Assembly (NCBI GenBank): GCA_022566265.1
Contig: JADFJG010000021.1
Coordinates: 1 to 39,347, forward strand
Source: Pseudomonadota bacterium
GTDB lineage: Bacteria; Pseudomonadota; Alphaproteobacteria; SMXQ01
DNA length: 39,347 bases
Direction: 5' to 3'
Shown: positions 4,115 to 39,347 of the stretch, in pieces
Layout: the number at the start of each line of letters is the position of its first letter
Position numbering within the stretch: the first letter of the stretch is position 1
Translations under genes and position numbers: made by a program
Notes under the pieces: generated by a model
Told to the model about the DNA's origin: nothing
Database searches by the model: none
The model's input: the letters and a program-made list of their open reading frames with translations, nothing else

Positions 4115-5162
4115 GCCCTTCGCCCGCCGCCTCCGGGTTCGGCCAAAGCAGGCAGCCATCGCCGTAGGAATAGAAGCGGTAGCCGGCCTCCTTGGCGTGC
4201 CCGTAGGCCGCCCGCATCCGCGCCAGGCCCGAAAACGCCGAAACCAGCATGAACAGGGTGGATTTGGGCAGATGGAAATTGGTCAACAACAGATCGATAG
4301 CGCGAAAGCGGTAACCGGGCGTGATGAAGAGATCGGTTTCGCCGGCGAAGGGTCGCACGCGCCCGGCATCATTCGCCGCCGATTCCACCAGGCGCAGCAC
4401 CGTCGTGCCGACGGCGACGATGCGCCCGCCGCCGTCGCGCGCCCGGTTGATGGCGCCGGCGGATTCCTCAGATATGGTTCCGGTCTCGCTGTGCATCCTG
4501 TGGTCCCTGGTGTCGGTGGCCTTCACCGGCAGGAAGGTGCCGGCACCGACATGAAGGGTGATGAAGACGCGCCCGATCCCCCGCGCCTCCAAGGCGTCGA
4601 ATAGCGCCGGCGTGAAATGGAGCCCGGCCGTCGGCGCCGCGATGGCGCCTTCATCGCGGGCATAGACCGTCTGGTAGTCTTCGCGGTCCCTGGCGTCGGG
4701 GCCGCCGGCGCGGCGGATATAAGGCGGCAGGGGGGCTTGGCCGAAACGCTCGATCGCCTGCCTGAAGGCGGCGCCTTCGAGGCCGAATTCGAGGCTGACC
4801 TCGCCGTCCGCGCCCTTGGCGGCGACATCGGCCCAAAAGCCGGGCGCGAAATCGATCCGGTCGCCGGGGCGCAGCCGGCGCGATCCCTTGGCGAAGGCCC
4901 GCCACGACCGCGCCCCGTCCTGTTTATGGAGCGTCACCTCGACCGTGGCCTCCCCGCGCCTGCCGCGAAGGCGCGCCGGGATCACCTTGGTGTCGTTCAG
5001 CACCAACAAATCGCCCGGCCGCAGCAGTTCGGGCAGGTCACGGACGGAATGGTCGCCCAGACTCTCACCCACCGCGAGCAGGCGCGCGCTATCCCTCGGC
5101 GTCACGGGCCGGCCGGCGATCATCTGGCGCGGCAGGTCGAAATCGAAATCAGAGACTTTCAT
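4092..5162 (-). CDS. queA: S-adenosylmethionine:tRNA ribosyltransferase-isomerase QueA
   Basis: [75 protein letters not shown]. Confidence 0.95.
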
Positions 5163-5211
5163 CGCCGTTCAGGGCATCGCCGTTCAGGGACCGGCGTCGA
5201 TCGCGGCATCG

Positions 5212-6351
5212 TCATGCCGGCACCTTGACCGGCGCCCGCCATTCGGCGGCGACGCCGGCATCGGTTTCCCCTGGCGCGTGCCGCGCCCGCAAGCGATCGA
5301 AATCGCCGGGGTCCATGAGCCGCGTCAGCGCCCACACCGCCATGGCGCGGACCAGGGGAGAAGGGTCGGCGAGCACACCCGCGATCACCGGGACCATCGC
5401 GGCGTCCCCGGAATTCCCCAGCGCGATCAAGACGTTGCGGACGAAACGCGCCCGCCCGATGCGTTTGATCGCCGAGCCCGCGAACATCTTGCGGAACCCG
5501 GCGTCATCCAGCCCGGCGAGGTCGGCAAGTTTCGGCGCCGTCAATTCGGCGCGCGGCTCGAAGGCGTACTCCTTGGTGCTGGAGGCGTATTTGTTCCACG
5601 GGCAGACCGCCAGGCAGTCGTCGCAGCCATAGATGCGGTTGCCCATGGGTTTCCTGAATTCCCTGGCGATATGGCCCTTATGTTCGATGGTGAGATAGGA
5701 GATGCAGCGCCTGGGGTCGAGCCGATAGGGCGCCGGGAAGGCGTCGGTCGGGCAGACGTCGAGGCATCTGTGGCATGACCCGCAATGATCGGCCTCGGCG
5801 GCGTCGGCGGGAAGTTCCAGGGTGGTGAAGATTTCGCCGAGAAACAGCCACGATCCGTGCCGGCGCGAGACCAGATTGGTGTGCTTGCCCTGCCAGCCGA
5901 TCCCGGCCTGCTCGGCCAGGGGCTTCTCCATCACCGGCGCGGTGTCGACGAACACCTTGACGTCGCAGCCGTACCTCCCGACCAGCCAGCGGCCGAGCGC
6001 CTTGAGCCGCTTCTTGACGACGTCGTGGTAATCCCGGCCCTGGGCATAGACCGAGACGGCGCCGAGATCGGGGCGGGCCAGGATCTCCAGGGGGTCATGC
6101 GAGGGGCCGTAGTTAAGCGTCAGGACGATGACGCTCTTGACCTCGGGCCAGAGGTGCTTGGGCTGGGCCCGCGCGCCGGCGCGCCGGAAAAGCCAGTCCA
6201 TGTCGCCGTGAAAGCCGAGATCGAGGTAGCGGGCGAGATTCCGGCCGGCCTCGGCATCCAGCACCGGCGGGGCGAAACCGGCCCCGTCGAAGCCAAGCCG
6301 GCGCGCCATGGCGCGGATCGTCGATTTCGCTTCAGCCGATTCCATCATCAC
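5212..6351 (-). CDS. queG: Epoxyqueuosine reductase QueG (likely start 6345; SD AGAGGTG upstream of ATGATGATG)
   Basis: Two 4Fe-4S motifs CGSCHRCLDVCPTDAF and CDDCLAVCPWNKYA, GIGWQGKHTNLVS. Confidence 0.95.
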   Translation of the reverse strand: MMMESAEAKSTIRAMARRLGFDGAGFAPPVLDAEAGRNLARYLDLGFHGDMDWLFRRAGARAQPKHLWPEVKSVIVLTLNYGPSHDPLEILARPDLGAVSVYAQGRDYHDVVKKRLKALGRWLVGRYGCDVKVFVDTAPVMEKPLAEQAGIGWQGKHTNLVSRRHGSWLFLGEIFTTLELPADAAEADHCGSCHRCLDVCPTDAFPAPYRLDPRRCISYLTIEHKGHIAREFRKPMGNRIYGCDDCLAVCPWNKYASSTKEYAFEPRAELTAPKLADLAGLDDAGFRKMFAGSAIKRIGRARFVRNVLIALGNSGDAAMVPVIAGVLADPSPLVRAMAVWALTRLMDPGDFDRLRARHAPGETDAGVAAEWRAPVKVPA

Positions 6352-6356
6352 CTCTG

Positions 6357-6657
6357 GGAGCCTATCCGAGTATTGATCACGGGCTGCACCGCGTTTTCAA
6401 GGTCTTGGGCTAGGATGGTGCCGCGCCGCGATGCCGGGCGCATCGCAAGCGGTGCCAGACGACGTCCCAAGGCCTTGAAAACGCGGCCCGCCGGGTCGGC
6501 CAGACAGACGCGATTGCCGCGTCGCGAAGGCTTGCCGATGCGCCCGGCACTCGCCTCGGCGAAGCCTCCGGCGGAGCCAGGGTCGCCCGCGCCTCCGCTC
6601 CTAACACTCGCGTCTGTCTGGCCGATGCAGTCCATGATCAATACCCGGATAGGCTCC
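6357..6657. mobile_element. Bipartite palindromic MITE-like element, copy A
   Basis: 23-bp TIR GGAGCCTATCCGAGTATTGATCA (6357-6379) / TGATCAATACCCGGATAGGCTCC (6635-6657), 22/23 complementary. Two internal long stems: 6389-6409/6466-6486 and 6496-6512/6609-6625. Confidence 0.8.
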
Positions 6658-6873
6658 TGGGGCCTCGCCATGCGCCGGGGCATCGCCGCGCCCAGCGCCT
6701 TGTCGCACATTTCAGGATACCCACCCTGGAACCGACGGTGCAAGCCGGCCGATTCGTGCCGCCGTTGGCGTTTCGCGCGCCCGACGTAGGCTTTGGTCTT
6801 ACCGGGGGTTAACAAAATTTTAGGGCGTCCGGGCCTAGGCTTTTGGCGGGCTAGCCATGGAGTTGGAAAGAGT

Positions 6874-8427
6874 ATGCCAACGAAACAAGGCCTCAAGGGC
6901 TTCAGGGCCCGGGTCGCCGAATATTTCTACGAGGACGTGCCGCTTGGCCATGCCAAGGGGCGCAAGGGCGAGGGCAAGGCGGCAAGGGGGCCAGGCGCCC
7001 CGGCCGCCCGGGACGAGTTCAACGAGCGCGCCCAAAAGCTGCTCGAGACATTCCCCGATCCCAAGCTGACGGCCGGGAAGCTCCAGATCCTCGGGCTCTA
7101 CGGCCTGCGCAAGACCGCCACCACGCAGTGGGATGAAATTTCCGACGAGGTGCAGGATCTCATAGCCTCGGCGATGCGGCGCCACCTCGATCCGAGCGAC
7201 ATCTACACCCGCTATGACGAAGAAACCTTTGTCGTGCTGTTCTGCCAGCGGGACATGGAGGAGGCAGAGAAGAAGACGCTGACGATCGCCAAGGAGGCGA
7301 AATCCTTCCTCAAGCGCTACCTCGCCAAGATACTGCCCAAGCAAAAGGCGGCGCGCGATGCCATCGACGTTCGTGGCGAGGTCGCCGAGATCGATTGCGC
7401 GAATTCGGGTTCGGGCGAGACCATCTTCGATGTCATCGCCAATAGGCTCGGAGTGAAAACCACCGAGCCGGCGGATGGCCCCGACGGCGGGCGTCGGCCG
7501 GATGGCGGACCCATGAACGGCCAAGAAGGCGCGCCCGGCCCTTCCCGGCATAACGCCCGTCTGCCCGCCAATAGCCGCGGTGGAGGCGGCGGTGGCGGCG
7601 GGGAGGCCAAGGAGCGGCGCAAATACGGCGCGCCGCGTGAACGGGCGCTCCGTGGCCACACATTCGTCCGCTCGGCGAACGACGTTGCCGGTGAAGCGGA
7701 TGAGCGCCCGCATGACGGCGAGGCCCATACCGCTGCCGCCTTGTCCGCCGCGCCGCTCGTCTTCCTGCCGGTCTGGGGGGCGGTGCAGAGCCTCGTTTCC
7801 ACCTATGCCTGCGCCCTGCCGCCCGCGCCCGCCGCCGGTCCCGCGCCCGGCATGAGCCAGGCCGATCGCGACCGGCTTCTGCTCGGCAATATCATCCGCG
7901 GATTCGAAACCCTCGATCACCGTAAGTCATCGGCGCTGCTCATCGCGGCGGTGGATTTCGAGACGCTGACGGGCAAAACCTCGCGCCGGAAGTTCATGGA
8001 TCTCTGCCGGCGGATACCGTCGTCCAACAGGAAATTCATATTGTTCGAGATATGCAACCTGGCCGGATACGCGCCCTGGCCGGAAGCCAACCGGGTGTGG
8101 CAGGAACTGCAACCTTACTGTCTTTCGATCATCGTCCGCCTGCCCCTCGAGAATCCGGTGATGGACGGAATAGAGACGCCTAAGCTCTATGCCTTCTCGA
8201 CCGATCTCGGTCATCTCGACGGCAAGGCGGTGGCGAGGCGCGCGGACATCGCCGCCTTCGTCGGCGCCGCCGAGGCCAAGGGCCTGAGGACCCTCGCCCA
8301 CGGGGTCAACAGGGCGTCCGTCGGCGAATGGGCGCTCAGCGCCGGCGTCGCCTACATGAGCGGCGAGGCCATCGCGCCGGCGGAGATAATGGCGAAGCCG
8401 ACCTACGGTTACGACCCCTTCCGTTAG
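6874..8427 (+). CDS. Degenerate GGDEF / EAL-like domain protein
   Basis: Degenerate GGDEF loop IYTRYDEETFVVLF; EAL-like C-terminus RTLAHGVNRASVGEWALSAGVAYMSGEAIAP; Gly-rich linker NSRGGGGGGGGEAKERR. Confidence 0.6.
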   Translation: MPTKQGLKGFRARVAEYFYEDVPLGHAKGRKGEGKAARGPGAPAARDEFNERAQKLLETFPDPKLTAGKLQILGLYGLRKTATTQWDEISDEVQDLIASAMRRHLDPSDIYTRYDEETFVVLFCQRDMEEAEKKTLTIAKEAKSFLKRYLAKILPKQKAARDAIDVRGEVAEIDCANSGSGETIFDVIANRLGVKTTEPADGPDGGRRPDGGPMNGQEGAPGPSRHNARLPANSRGGGGGGGGEAKERRKYGAPRERALRGHTFVRSANDVAGEADERPHDGEAHTAAALSAAPLVFLPVWGAVQSLVSTYACALPPAPAAGPAPGMSQADRDRLLLGNIIRGFETLDHRKSSALLIAAVDFETLTGKTSRRKFMDLCRRIPSSNRKFILFEICNLAGYAPWPEANRVWQELQPYCLSIIVRLPLENPVMDGIETPKLYAFSTDLGHLDGKAVARRADIAAFVGAAEAKGLRTLAHGVNRASVGEWALSAGVAYMSGEAIAPAEIMAKPTYGYDPFR

Positions 8428-8568
8428 GATCGCGGGGCATCTCGGGCTTACCCGCTTGCGCGGCGCACAAATACTTGGAATTCTAACCTTCTCGGAATAC
8501 AATCCTTGTCAATCGGGCGTTTGGCGTGATTTGGGCGCGGCGCCGGCGAGGCGAGAGCATTCCGTGCG

Positions 8569-9063
8569 ATGGCGAAGTCGAGTGAAAACAAGGTTTCCCC
8601 GGAGCCCGACGACAAAGAAGAGAGGGTCGAGTTCCACCCCGAACATTCCACCGGTTATCTGCTGCGCGACACATTCCGCGCCTTTTCCAAGGTCCTCTCG
8701 GCGCGAATTTCGGCCCATGGCGTCACCATCGGCCAGTGGTATTTCCTGAGGGTGCTTTGGGAGGAGGACGGGCTGACACAACGCGAGTTGAGCCAACGCG
8801 TCGGCATGATGGAACCGACCACGGTGACGGCGCTGAACGGCATGGAAAAGCGGGACTACGTCCGCCGGGTGCGCAGCACCGAAGACCGGCGCAAGGTCAA
8901 TGTCTTCCTCACCAGGAAGGGAAGATCGCTGCGCAACAAATTGCTGCCCTTCGCCATCGAGGTGAACCGGCTCGCCACCGAGGGGGTGTCCGAGGACGAT
9001 CTCGAAAACCTCCGCGCCACGCTCCGGCACATGCGGGACAGGCTTCAGGCCGAAAGCGAATAG
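8569..9063 (+). CDS. MarR family transcriptional regulator
   Basis: LTQRELSQRVGMMEPTTVTALNGMEKRDYVRRVRSTEDRRKVNVFLTRKGRSL: wHTH and MarR wing. Confidence 0.95.
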   Translation: MAKSSENKVSPEPDDKEERVEFHPEHSTGYLLRDTFRAFSKVLSARISAHGVTIGQWYFLRVLWEEDGLTQRELSQRVGMMEPTTVTALNGMEKRDYVRRVRSTEDRRKVNVFLTRKGRSLRNKLLPFAIEVNRLATEGVSEDDLENLRATLRHMRDRLQAESE

Positions 9064-9083
9064 CCCCCGTGTTTCGCCAACCT

Positions 9084-9350
9084 AGTACTTACTTTCATAG
9101 AAGGGTGACACATCTGACGGCCTTGCGGGGTCTTCGGCTAGGAGCGTGGTCCGCCGTGATGCTGGCGCATCACAAGGGCCGCGCGACGACGTCCGAAGGG
9201 CCCGCAAGGCCGCCCGCAGGGTCGCTTTTCGCGGCCACCGGAGGGCGTCACCGCCGCTTGACGATGCCCTGGCATCGTCGGCGCGACGCTTCCTACCCGG
9301 TGGCCGCGAAAAACGATCATATGTGCCACCCTTCTATGAAAGTAAGTACT
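9084..9350. mobile_element. Bipartite palindromic MITE-like element, copy B
   Basis: 30-bp TIR AGTACTTACTTTCATAGAAGGGTGACACAT (9084-9113) / ATGTGCCACCCTTCTATGAAAGTAAGTACT (9321-9350), 29/30 complementary. Internal stems 9118-9137/9193-9212 and 9226-9241/9297-9312; loop motifs shared with copy A. Confidence 0.85.
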
Positions 9351-9361
9351 CACGATAGCCG

Positions 9362-10120
9362 ATGACCGCCGCCGCCAAGCAACCGAACCGGGACCCCTCG
9401 TTGGCGCCGCTGAGGGGACAGTTGGCGGCGCTCACCCGTCTTTTGCACCGCGAGCGGATCCTCAATTACAGCGGCCATGCCTCGGTCCGCATTCCCGGCC
9501 GCGACGCTTTCCTCATCCAGTCCCTCTACGAGAGCCGGGCGAAGGTCTCTCCCGACAGCCTGATCGCCGTCGATTTCGACTGTAACGTCATCGACGGGCC
9601 GGACGGCTTCGAGCCGCCCCGCGAGGTCCGTATCCACGCCGAGATCCTCCGCGCCCGCGCCGACGTCGAGGCGGTGGTGCATACCCATTCGGAACTGGCC
9701 GCCGCCTTCACCATGGTCGAGGGGGTCGAGCTTCGCCTGATGAAGTCCCACGCCGTGCGCTGGAAGAGCGGCATCCCCATCCATCCCGATCCTTCCCACA
9801 TCATGACGCCCGAGCAGGGCCGTGAGCTCGCCGATACGCTGGGGCCCCATCAGGGCGCGCTGCTCCGCGCCCATGGCGGCGTGCTGGTGGCGGAAAGCGT
9901 GCCGGCGCTGCTCATCGATGCGGTGCATTTCGACGAGAACGCCCGCGCCCAGTTGCAGGCGGCGGCCATCGGCCGGCTCAAGCCGCTGACCGAGGCCGAG
10001 CTCGAGTTGTTGGCCTCCCGGTCGAACCGCGACCAGCATGTCTCCAAGCTCTGGAGCTATTACCTCGCCGCCGGCATGGACTCCGGCATCATCCCGAGGG
10101 ACTGGAACGAGCTGCTCTGA
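9362..10120 (+). CDS. Class II aldolase/adducin family protein
   Basis: NYSGHASVRIPGRDAFLIQ, HAEILRARADVEAVVHTHSELAAAFTM, RAHGGVLVAES. Confidence 0.9.
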   Translation: MTAAAKQPNRDPSLAPLRGQLAALTRLLHRERILNYSGHASVRIPGRDAFLIQSLYESRAKVSPDSLIAVDFDCNVIDGPDGFEPPREVRIHAEILRARADVEAVVHTHSELAAAFTMVEGVELRLMKSHAVRWKSGIPIHPDPSHIMTPEQGRELADTLGPHQGALLRAHGGVLVAESVPALLIDAVHFDENARAQLQAAAIGRLKPLTEAELELLASRSNRDQHVSKLWSYYLAAGMDSGIIPRDWNELL

Positions 10121-10207
10121 GGGGCTCTCAAACCGCCGAAGGTCGGCGGGCGCGGGCGTCCGCCCGCTTGGCTTTCCTCGCTTCGGCTCGGGGCGCGCGG
10201 TCGCGCT

Positions 10208-10243
10208 TGCCAGCGGGCCGATGAAGGTCTTCATCGGCCCGCT
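10208..10243. terminator. Perfect 16-bp stem hairpin between convergent genes; possible bidirectional terminator (no clear T tract)
   Basis: CCAGCGGGCCGATGAA-GGTC-TTCATCGGCCCGCTGG. Confidence 0.5.
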
Positions 10244-10286
10244 GGTATCGAAGCGCCGAAGTCCGGCGGCAACTTCCTGGAAATAC

Positions 10287-19507: not shown

Positions 19508-19771
19508 CAAAGGGGTCAAGTCTTGACAATTATCATTTTGTTTCAAAGGGGTCAAGTCTTGACAATTATCATTTTTGTTTGCGGCTGGGATGCTTGCCGT
19601 TGGCTCAAGCCAAAACCACCGGCGCATCGCTCGCCGCAAGCCAGCCTTTGAACCGGCCTCACAACCGGCGGTACCGTGGAATTTCCGCCCGCCGCCGAGT
19701 CAGTGCCACGAGGGCATGGGAAGGGAGGGTCGGTCGAATAAAATGATAATTGTCAAGACTTGACCCCTTTC
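19508..19771. mobile_element. Non-autonomous element bounded by RAYT-type repeats (two direct copies at left, one inverted at right)
   Basis: CAAAGGGGTCAAGTCTTGACAATTATCATTTT at 19508-19539 and 19544-19575; AAAATGATAATTGTCAAGACTTGACCCCTTT at 19740-19770; same repeat flanks the transposase at 32958 and 33981. Confidence 0.8.
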
Positions 19772-32957: not shown

Positions 32958-34010
32958 CAAAGGGGTCAAGTCTTGACAATTATCATTTTAGCCGCGAATG
33001 CAGCCTGCCGATGATGCCGTCGACGAGATTCCGCAGCACCGGGTCCTTCGCCAGCCGGCCCTTCAACCGGCTGGCGGCCACCGAAACGGTGGAGTAATGG
33101 CTGACGCCGAAGGCGCCGGCGATCTCCTTGAGGGTAAAGCCGCCGGGATTGCGGCAAAGCGCCATGGCCACCAGACGTGGCGCGTTTTCCGCGCCCCGGC
33201 CTCGCCGCGCGGTGCCGAGTGCCGCCGGGGCAACACCGAAGGCGTTGGCGGTAACTTCGATGATGCGCTCGACACCCGGCCTCGCCGTTAGGCGCCGGGC
33301 GCCGGGGATTTCTTTGTCGTCGCCGGCAGGCCTCGCGCGCGCCGCCGCCTGCTCGCGGAATGGGGCATCGCCGAGGACAGGGACGATCCGGGCCGTCCCG
33401 TAAAAGTCCTTTATTTCGGCGTCATCGCCGGCGGCGACATATTGCCGGTATCGGGAGGCGCGCTGGCGCTTGCCGAAGAGGTCGAGAATGGTCTCCGTGC
33501 ATAACCAGTCCGGCGCCGGCGTCTCGCCGATATAGGCTCGGTAGCTGGACCATCGATAGCGGTCGAGCCGCGCCACCAGGCGCGCTTGCAGTGGATTTCG
33601 GTGGACATAACGGCTCACTTGCATGAGCCAGGCGTCGGCGTCCAGGAGGATGGCCTTATACCGCCCCCGGAACAGCGGCCCGTCCCGGCCGGCGGCGCGG
33701 TTGTGACGCTGTGTGTAGACACCGTTCAGGTGCCGCATGGCGCGGCCGAGATTGCCGCGCGGGGTATGGAGTAGCAGATGATAGTGATTGCCCATGAGAC
33801 AAAAAACGTGGACCTCGACAGCGAAAATCTCCGAAACCTCGCCCAGGAGCGCCAGGAAAGCGAGCCGGTCGCGCTCGCTCGCGAAGACGGCTTGGCGGTT
33901 GGCGCCCCGGTTCATGACGTGATACCAGGCGCCCTCGAACTCGATGCGCAACGGGCGGGTCATGACGGCAGGCTATTGGTAAAATGATAATTGTCAAGAC
34001 TTGACCCCTT
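32958..34010. mobile_element. RAYT transposon unit bounded by inverted 30-32 bp repeats
   Basis: CAAAGGGGTCAAGTCTTGACAATTATCATTTT (32958-32989) and its inverted copy AAAATGATAATTGTCAAGACTTGACCCCTT (33981-34010) tightly flank the transposase ORF. Confidence 0.85.
32983..33963 (-). CDS. REP-associated tyrosine transposase (Y1/IS200-like RAYT) with C-terminal DnaA-domain-IV-like HTH
   Basis: MTRPLRIEFEGAWYHVMNRGANRQAVF, VFCLMGNHYHLLLHTP (HUH), YTQRHNR tyrosine region, YVHRNPLQARLV; C-terminus LVAMALCRNPGGFTLKEIAGAFGVSHYSTVSVAASRL. Confidence 0.93.
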   Translation of the reverse strand: MTRPLRIEFEGAWYHVMNRGANRQAVFASERDRLAFLALLGEVSEIFAVEVHVFCLMGNHYHLLLHTPRGNLGRAMRHLNGVYTQRHNRAAGRDGPLFRGRYKAILLDADAWLMQVSRYVHRNPLQARLVARLDRYRWSSYRAYIGETPAPDWLCTETILDLFGKRQRASRYRQYVAAGDDAEIKDFYGTARIVPVLGDAPFREQAAARARPAGDDKEIPGARRLTARPGVERIIEVTANAFGVAPAALGTARRGRGAENAPRLVAMALCRNPGGFTLKEIAGAFGVSHYSTVSVAASRLKGRLAKDPVLRNLVDGIIGRLHSRLK

Positions 34011-38292: not shown

Positions 38293-39189
38293 ATGGCGGA
38301 TGACGAGAACAGCTCCGTGCTTGGCATCATCGGCGGCAGCGGCCTTTACGACATTCCGGGTCTCGCCGACACGCGCTGGCGGCGGGTGGCCTCGCCCTTC
38401 GGCGAGGCGTCGGATGAAATCCTCTTCGGCGTCCTCGACGGCAAACGGCTGGCGTTCCTGCCGCGCCACGGCCGCGGCCACCGGATACCGCCGACGGAGG
38501 TCAACTACCGCGCCAACATCGACGCGCTCAAGCGTTCGGGCGTCACCGACATCGTCTCGGTCAGCGCCGTCGGCAGCCTCAAGGAGGAACTCGCGCCTGG
38601 CGCCTTCGTCATCGTCGATCAGTTCGTCGACCGCACCTTCGCCCGGCCCGAAAGCTTCTTCGCCACCGGCCTCGTCGCCCATGTGTCGATGGCGCACCCG
38701 GTGTGCGCGCGGCTCGGCGACGGGATCGAGGCGGCGGCGAAGGAGGCGGGCGTCGCGGTGGTGCGTGGCGGCGCCTATCTCGTCATCGAGGGGCCGCAAT
38801 TCTCGACCCTCGCCGAATCGGAGCTTTACCGCCGGTCGGGTTGCGACGTGATCGGCATGACCAACATGCCCGAGGCCAGGCTCGCGCGCGAGGCCGAGAT
38901 CTGTTACGCCACCGTCGCCATGGTCACCGATTTCGATTGCTGGCACCCCGACCACGACGACGTGACGGTGGCGGCGATCATCGACACCCTGCATGACAAC
39001 GCCGATAAGGCCAAGGCGTTGATCGGCAAACTGGCGCCAAGCCTCGTCGCCTCGACGGATGATTGCGCCCAAGGCTGCCGCCGGGCCCTCGACAGCGCCG
39101 TGATCACGGCGCCCGAGGCCCGCGATCCGGCGCTGGTCGAAAAGCTCGACGCCATCGCCGGGCGGGTGCTTAATACCAAAGGTCCTTGA
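38293..39189 (+). CDS. mtnP: S-methyl-5'-thioadenosine phosphorylase
   Basis: LGIIGGSGLYDIPGL, FLPRHGRGHRIPPTEVNYRANIDALK, YLVIEGPQFSTLAESELYR, DVIGMTNMPEARLAREAEICYA. Confidence 0.95.
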   Translation: MADDENSSVLGIIGGSGLYDIPGLADTRWRRVASPFGEASDEILFGVLDGKRLAFLPRHGRGHRIPPTEVNYRANIDALKRSGVTDIVSVSAVGSLKEELAPGAFVIVDQFVDRTFARPESFFATGLVAHVSMAHPVCARLGDGIEAAAKEAGVAVVRGGAYLVIEGPQFSTLAESELYRRSGCDVIGMTNMPEARLAREAEICYATVAMVTDFDCWHPDHDDVTVAAIIDTLHDNADKAKALIGKLAPSLVASTDDCAQGCRRALDSAVITAPEARDPALVEKLDAIAGRVLNTKGP

Positions 39190-39237
39190 TAATGACCCCT
39201 AGAGATCGGGCAGGCGATCTGTCGGGCCATCGGGCGG

Positions 39238-39347
39238 GTAGGAGGGAAGCCGCCGGCGATGCACCGCATCGTCAAGGCTTTCCGACGCCCGCCGGCGGTT
39301 CGCATGCCCGACCGGAACGGCGGCTTCCCAAGGCTTTCGGACGGCGT
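39238..39347 (+). mobile_element. Bipartite palindromic MITE-like element, copy C (truncated at window edge; left end undetermined)
   Basis: GTAGGAGGGAAGCCGCCGGCGATGCACCGCATCGTCAAGGCTTTCCGACGCCCG carries the TAGGA / GATGC-GCATC / CAAG / GACG core of copies A and B. Confidence 0.6.

Follow-up and report, generated by a model that had tools for sequence, protein, structure and literature searches.

The intergenic elements described here probably belong to a superfamily of non-autonomous, TA-targeting MITEs whose members carry a pair of REP-like hairpins, α and β, selected as folded strands. Elements A and B, and a third, truncated element (C), lie in the window, by which we mean the whole 39,347-nucleotide stretch of DNA analyzed. 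In A and B, a long terminal inverted repeat (TIR) surrounds two opposed hairpins bearing one common core, which consists of [C/G]TAGGA, a stem of 8–9 bp, a GCC/AA loop, a GATG..CATC hairpin and GACG. A reading of the sequence only had proposed this architecture for two intergenic elements, and it is present in both, far beyond chance. The core pattern occurs four times in the window (A1, B1, B2 and the core of element C) versus 0.14 expected, and none of 100 shuffled sequences reached four.

Element A (6357–6657, plus strand) has the TIR GGAGCCTATCCGAGTATTGATCA of family S4, with arms at 6357–6391 and 6623–6657 that are 89% complementary. It is flanked by TG on both sides (6355–6356 and 6658–6659); the flanks of the other S4 copy of the genome (C136) are TA and TA. 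Its first hairpin, A1 (6389–6486, plus strand), is of the α type, running from CTAGGA to GACGACGT, with inner hairpin arms at 6389–6409 and 6466–6486 and a core at 6410–6465 (103 bits with the covariance model). The second, A2 (6496–6625, minus strand; inner arms 6496–6516 and 6605–6625), is β-like, begins with TTAGGAGCG and ends with GCGACGCGG, and contains extra sequence in its apical stem. About 48 bp of this apical insert (6545–6593) is itself a repeat, found at several further places in the congener (G004) and within an S1 copy on contig C97.

Element B (9084–9350, plus strand) lies in the interval bounded by a gene of the MarR family and one for a class II aldolase. Its TIR, (A)GTACTTACTTTCATAGAAGGGTGACACAT, belongs to family S1 and has arms at 9084–9143 and 9291–9350. 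Hairpin B1 (9114–9216, plus strand) is of the α type, with a core at 9138–9192 that scores 99 bits with the covariance model, while B2 (9222–9317, minus strand; inner arms 9222–9241 and 9297–9316) is of the β type, running from GTAGGA to GACGCCCT around a core at 9246–9295. The earlier suggestion that the second hairpins repeat the core is thus correct for B2; it also applies to A2, but with an extra stretch inside the apical hairpin. Element C (39174–39347, plus strand; TIR TACCAAAGGTCCTTGATAATGACC, family S5) is cut off by the contig end, and retains a β core (39239–39287) followed by the start of an α hairpin. The RNA folding z-scores of elements A and B are −14.8 and −15.5, respectively.

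Two other features were observed in this part of the window. An ORF of 544 residues without a Pfam match (6793–8427, plus strand), between queG and marR, is missing from the matching interval in related genomes. A 105-bp repeat at 10144–10248, which ends in a strong palindrome (10210–10245) and has about nine counterparts, 90–93% identical, in the congener, is another repeat family.

The elements are numerous in their own genome. The exact core pattern gave 8 matches there, versus none for the reversed pattern; a covariance model built from A1 and B1 only found 111 cores, and the refined model 134, which group into ∼75 elements. The usual arrangement is a plus-core followed by a minus-core ∼103 bp further on. 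Many elements of the host genome are located at contig ends, i.e. at assembly breaks. The TIRs define five families (S1–S5) in this genome, and the whole element is conserved inside each family, while between families only the core is shared. The proposal of conserved loops on changing stems therefore holds between TIR subfamilies, but within a subfamily the elements behave as ordinary MITEs, conserved throughout. TIRs, many copies and a lack of coding capacity, the features that define a MITE, were all found. No Rfam 15 family matched the window at the gathering score, and a search of the interval 5000–10000 with E-values up to 10 returned chance matches only.

To relate the elements to those of other genomes, the covariance model was run at several taxonomic levels. 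The congener contains 104 cores, and two genomes of another genus in the family contain 24 and 16; the other seven family genomes examined gave no cores. The order-level search covered the same 11 genomes as the family-level search. In a class-wide sample, 30 of 384 genomes matched (threshold E<1e-4, with values down to 1e-17), almost always as plus/minus pairs, so the copies of the window are far from unique, and the multi-copy family that had been supposed does exist. Clustering of the TIR arms from 92 elements gave 10 groups without detectable similarity to each other, whereas the cores remain unchanged, which bears out the claim of unrelated TIRs around conserved cores. The 17 exact-pattern matches from mixed phyla in a collection of genome contigs were discarded, none being upheld by the covariance model. 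Scans of plasmids gave one real carrier, plasmid p1536_1 of Nitratireductor thuwali. This copy (L300:1450–1635) keeps the TIR and the α hairpin and has lost most of β; it lies between ugpC and a permease gene and is annotated as a hypothetical protein. Judging from this carrier and from the QueA of the window, for which the plasmid collection gave its best matches in Sinorhizobium, Methylobacterium and Shinella (∼59% identity), the class to which the superfamily belongs is almost certainly the Alphaproteobacteria. A side observation is an ORF (L009:1968–2564, minus strand) with an in-frame tandem repeat of KMETGP, ∼6 units long.

That the elements are mobile, as had been surmised from the TIRs and the multiple copies, is well supported by empty sites, target duplications and nested insertions. 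For 14 elements, the two flanks were joined and compared with the congener, and 12 of these joined sequences match element-free sites there at roughly 81–97% identity. The congener contig ends beside the locus of element B, and its empty site was read in other related genomes: where both neighbours can be aligned, marR adjoins the aldolase gene and element B is missing, which identifies B as an insertion in this lineage. The readable junctions fit a duplication of TA in the context YTAR. The duplication is clear in S3 and S4, compatible with the junctions of S2 and S5, and partly degenerate in S1, several copies of which have a degenerate TA (element B has TA on the left and TC on the right). 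An S1 element is nested inside an S2 copy, and an S5 element inside an S3 copy. The former shows insertion, but the duplication made by S1 is not readable from that copy alone.

Members of the IS630 family insert into and duplicate TA, and IS630 itself prefers CTAG (PMC2170065). A TA duplication in YTAR is the signature of IS630/Tc1-mariner transposases. We found no autonomous element with the same TIRs in the genome, in the plasmids or in the viral contigs, the last of which gave no TIR matches; for the genome, this absence of a transposase with matching ends is weak evidence because the assembly is a draft. Two IS630-family genes (PF13358) of the same genome were considered as the source of the TIRs and rejected, as their own TIRs differ. 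Without a matching autonomous element, we infer the IS630 assignment from the TA/YTAR signature only.

Selection on a folded single strand seems to act on the hairpins and not on the TIRs, an interpretation that has statistical support from three kinds of evidence and agrees with the earlier suggestion of selection on a folded form. The covariation of the core stem is 0.490 in the own genome versus 0.167 after shuffling, and 0.628 versus 0.200 in the class-wide set; slid controls reach at most 0.14, and the loops are likewise better conserved than their controls. In 89 dereplicated hairpins, the ratio of G.T to A.C on the core-sense strand is 194:28 (94:11 for α and 69:12 for β). A mutation bias affecting one whole strand does not explain this excess, as the two hairpin types are on opposite strands. 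The excess is limited to the hairpins, the TIR arms on the α strand having a ratio of 33:60 (Fisher p∼1e-19 against the hairpins). Finally, the base that follows TAGG and the one that precedes ACG, beside the stem, switch together: the dereplicated counts are A.G 56, C.A 26, A.A 1 and C.G 0, which is the behavior expected of a non-canonical pair. Both the fitting of the alignments used here (A3 and A4) to the covariance model and the common descent of the copies mean that these counts are not independent events. A recount without the covariance model, in which G.T and A.C were scored alike, gave 56:8 for the outer and 63:15 for the inner stem, and A.G 43 and C.A 20 at the switch position.

Two further points concern the same alignments and folds. 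Class-wide, a mild bias in the other direction is seen in the TIR arms when they are read on the α strand, A.C exceeding G.T by 60:33 (p = 0.007). A third small hairpin between α and β (CC..GG), which would form a four-way junction, is seen in folds and was dismissed, as it does not rise above shuffled linkers.

An explanation that dispenses with selection on the fold is that template switching or gene conversion keeps the palindromes intact, the core being simply an interior that was inherited from a common ancestor and evolves slowly. The conservation of the whole element within each TIR family fits this idea, as does the fact that all arms, those of the TIRs included, are near-perfect inverted repeats. 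However, correction of this kind would treat both strands alike and would affect the TIRs as well, whereas the G.T excess is limited to the hairpins; it would also neither make an unpaired position follow the A.G/C.A rule nor keep the core loops while the TIRs diverge past recognition. We therefore consider this explanation improbable. A role as an mRNA element that acts in stability, processing or attenuation in UTRs, and whose fold is preserved by its use to the host, is less easily set aside, and yet we regard it as unlikely. The tolerance of G.T together with the A.G/C.A switch is what structured RNA shows, the elements adjoin genes, and every transcript across an element bears one sense hairpin in either reading direction. 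Folding as ssDNA would yield identical statistics, however, and the sites that are empty in a close relative imply that individual copies are not conserved. The gene context, according to crude gene calls, is tandem for 30 elements, divergent for 15, convergent for 13 and unclear for 28, and the α hairpin is sense in 10 cases, antisense in 10 and undetermined in 10. No preference for a position on the mRNA was seen in these calls, with neither an excess of tandem or convergent sites nor an orientation bias. Published REPs avoid divergent regions (PMC3733652), in contrast to the random-looking context of the present elements, which lends no support to a role at transcript termini. The context is compatible with roles in ssDNA and with orientation-independent roles in RNA.

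It is very improbable that the elements are REPIN-like and moved by REP-associated tyrosine transposases (RAYTs), which would recognize the TAGGA-stem-GA hairpins as ssDNA, with the TIRs as passengers. The foot of the hairpin does resemble the REPs of Pseudomonas and Xanthomonas, e.g. GTAGGAGCG...CGCGA (PMC2817692), and the inverted pair has the geometry of a REPIN, for which a clover fold has been proposed (PMC3116915). Tyrosine transposase genes were also found in 14 of 33 carriers, compared with 1 of 17 sampled non-carriers (p = 0.009). Nevertheless, a RAYT as a requirement is rejected by the 19 of 33 carriers in which a PF01797 gene is absent, including G115, a genome that is 99% complete and has at least 12 cores, and G309, a genome in one contig, and by the absence of cores from the RAYT gene neighbourhoods that were searched. 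Both RAYT genes of the own genome are flanked by different repeats of their own, the insertions duplicate TA, and the copied unit is defined by the TIRs. The window itself contains a PF01797 tyrosine transposase gene (32983–33963, minus strand) between inverted copies of GGGGTCAAGTCTTGACAATTATCATTTT (region 32962–34008); the same motif recurs three times at 19512–19767 (region 19509–19770). This gene and its flanks look like the TIRYT/TIRtron arrangement of PMC3733652 and appear to be unrelated to the core.

A non-autonomous, TA-targeting MITE superfamily with a selected hairpin pair thus remains the probable interpretation, and its members share features with several known systems. They resemble Correia/NEMIS, ERIC and MITEs of the IS630/Tc1-mariner type, being short, non-coding and intergenic, with long TIRs, TA duplication, many copies and strong folding. 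However, bacterial MITEs usually have one TIR family per element, whereas here about ten unrelated TIRs occur around one conserved hairpin pair. The hairpins also recall the CGTC REPs of PMC3733652. GACG on the sense strand is conserved class-wide, and the hairpins carry an unpaired CGTC tag at one end, as CGTC REPs do; both occur mostly as inverted pairs facing the same way, lack a dedicated transposase and are found mainly in Alphaproteobacteria. The CGTC REPs described there are 20–40 bp long, with a stem of 8–9 bp that starts with AT, a loop of 4–5 nt and a CCA tail. The present stem instead starts with G/C (G-C in 125 of 143 rows) and runs on into a second helix; a further internal loop is present, as is a GATG/CATC tip, and the hairpin lies inside a second stem and a TIR. 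Membership in CGTC REP families 1–4 was rejected, since the AT start, the 4–5 nt loop and the CCA tail are lacking.

Like GTAG REPs and REPINs (PMC2817692, PMC3116915), the hairpins have a GTAG/CTAG-like head, GA on the 3′ side and an inverted doublet arrangement. They differ in that no RAYT is flanked by cores, more than half of the carriers are without a RAYT, and TIRs and TA duplication are present. At the foot of the hairpin, a GTAG-like head occurs together with a CGTC on the opposite strand, features that recall the two REP super-families of PMC3733652. The closest published architecture in the open-licence literature is that of REP dimers within long palindromes, which the same paper gives for GTAG-15 of Anabaena variabilis and CGTC-1 of Halothiobacillus neapolitanus; these differ in having one palindrome per species and other hairpins, and TA duplication is not mentioned in that passage. 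Caulobacter CIR (cited in PMC10969869) and rhizobial RIME are likewise intergenic alphaproteobacterial repeats. CIR is named for its CcrM (GANTC) sites; GANTC is not enriched in the present elements (1.52 per kb versus 1.82 in the flanks, with none in A and B). With regard to RIME, the DNA covered was a 50-kb segment of Sinorhizobium meliloti pSymB, which gave no matches. The present elements are best described as a superfamily of TA-target MITEs whose hallmark is the conserved folded interior and not the ends.

These observations suggest the following model. The elements would be small non-autonomous transposons, presumably of alphaproteobacterial origin as a superfamily, in which some ten unrelated kinds of outer TIR may be cut and joined in trans by TA-target transposases, putatively of the IS630/Tc1-mariner type. 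Each kind of TIR encloses the same inverted hairpin pair, α on one strand and β on the other. Each hairpin is predicted to fold on its own sense strand, around TAGGA/GACG as internal loop, which may be a tandem G.A motif, and a tip (GATG/CATC) that hardly varies. The fold would most likely serve as a recognition site on ssDNA or nascent RNA and, with one hairpin on each strand, this site could be used whichever way the element is oriented. More tentatively, the α/β hairpins may represent a portable, structurally conserved nucleic-acid module with a specific cellular partner, kept or repeatedly captured by about ten unrelated lineages of TIR transposons, with the TIRs turning over along with their transposases and the folded module persisting.

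The usual definition of a bacterial MITE rests on its ends, the inside being filler, whereas here the structured interior is conserved and the ends are replaceable. The superfamily links two repeat worlds, TIR-bearing MITEs and tagged REP hairpins, and bears on a question raised in PMC3733652, namely how CGTC-tagged hairpins spread without a transposase. With the covariance model of the core, repeats that now carry no label can be annotated, one copy being currently called a hypothetical protein, and the covariation rules of the stems, the A.G/C.A switch and the GATG/CATC tip provide testable predictions for a binding partner.
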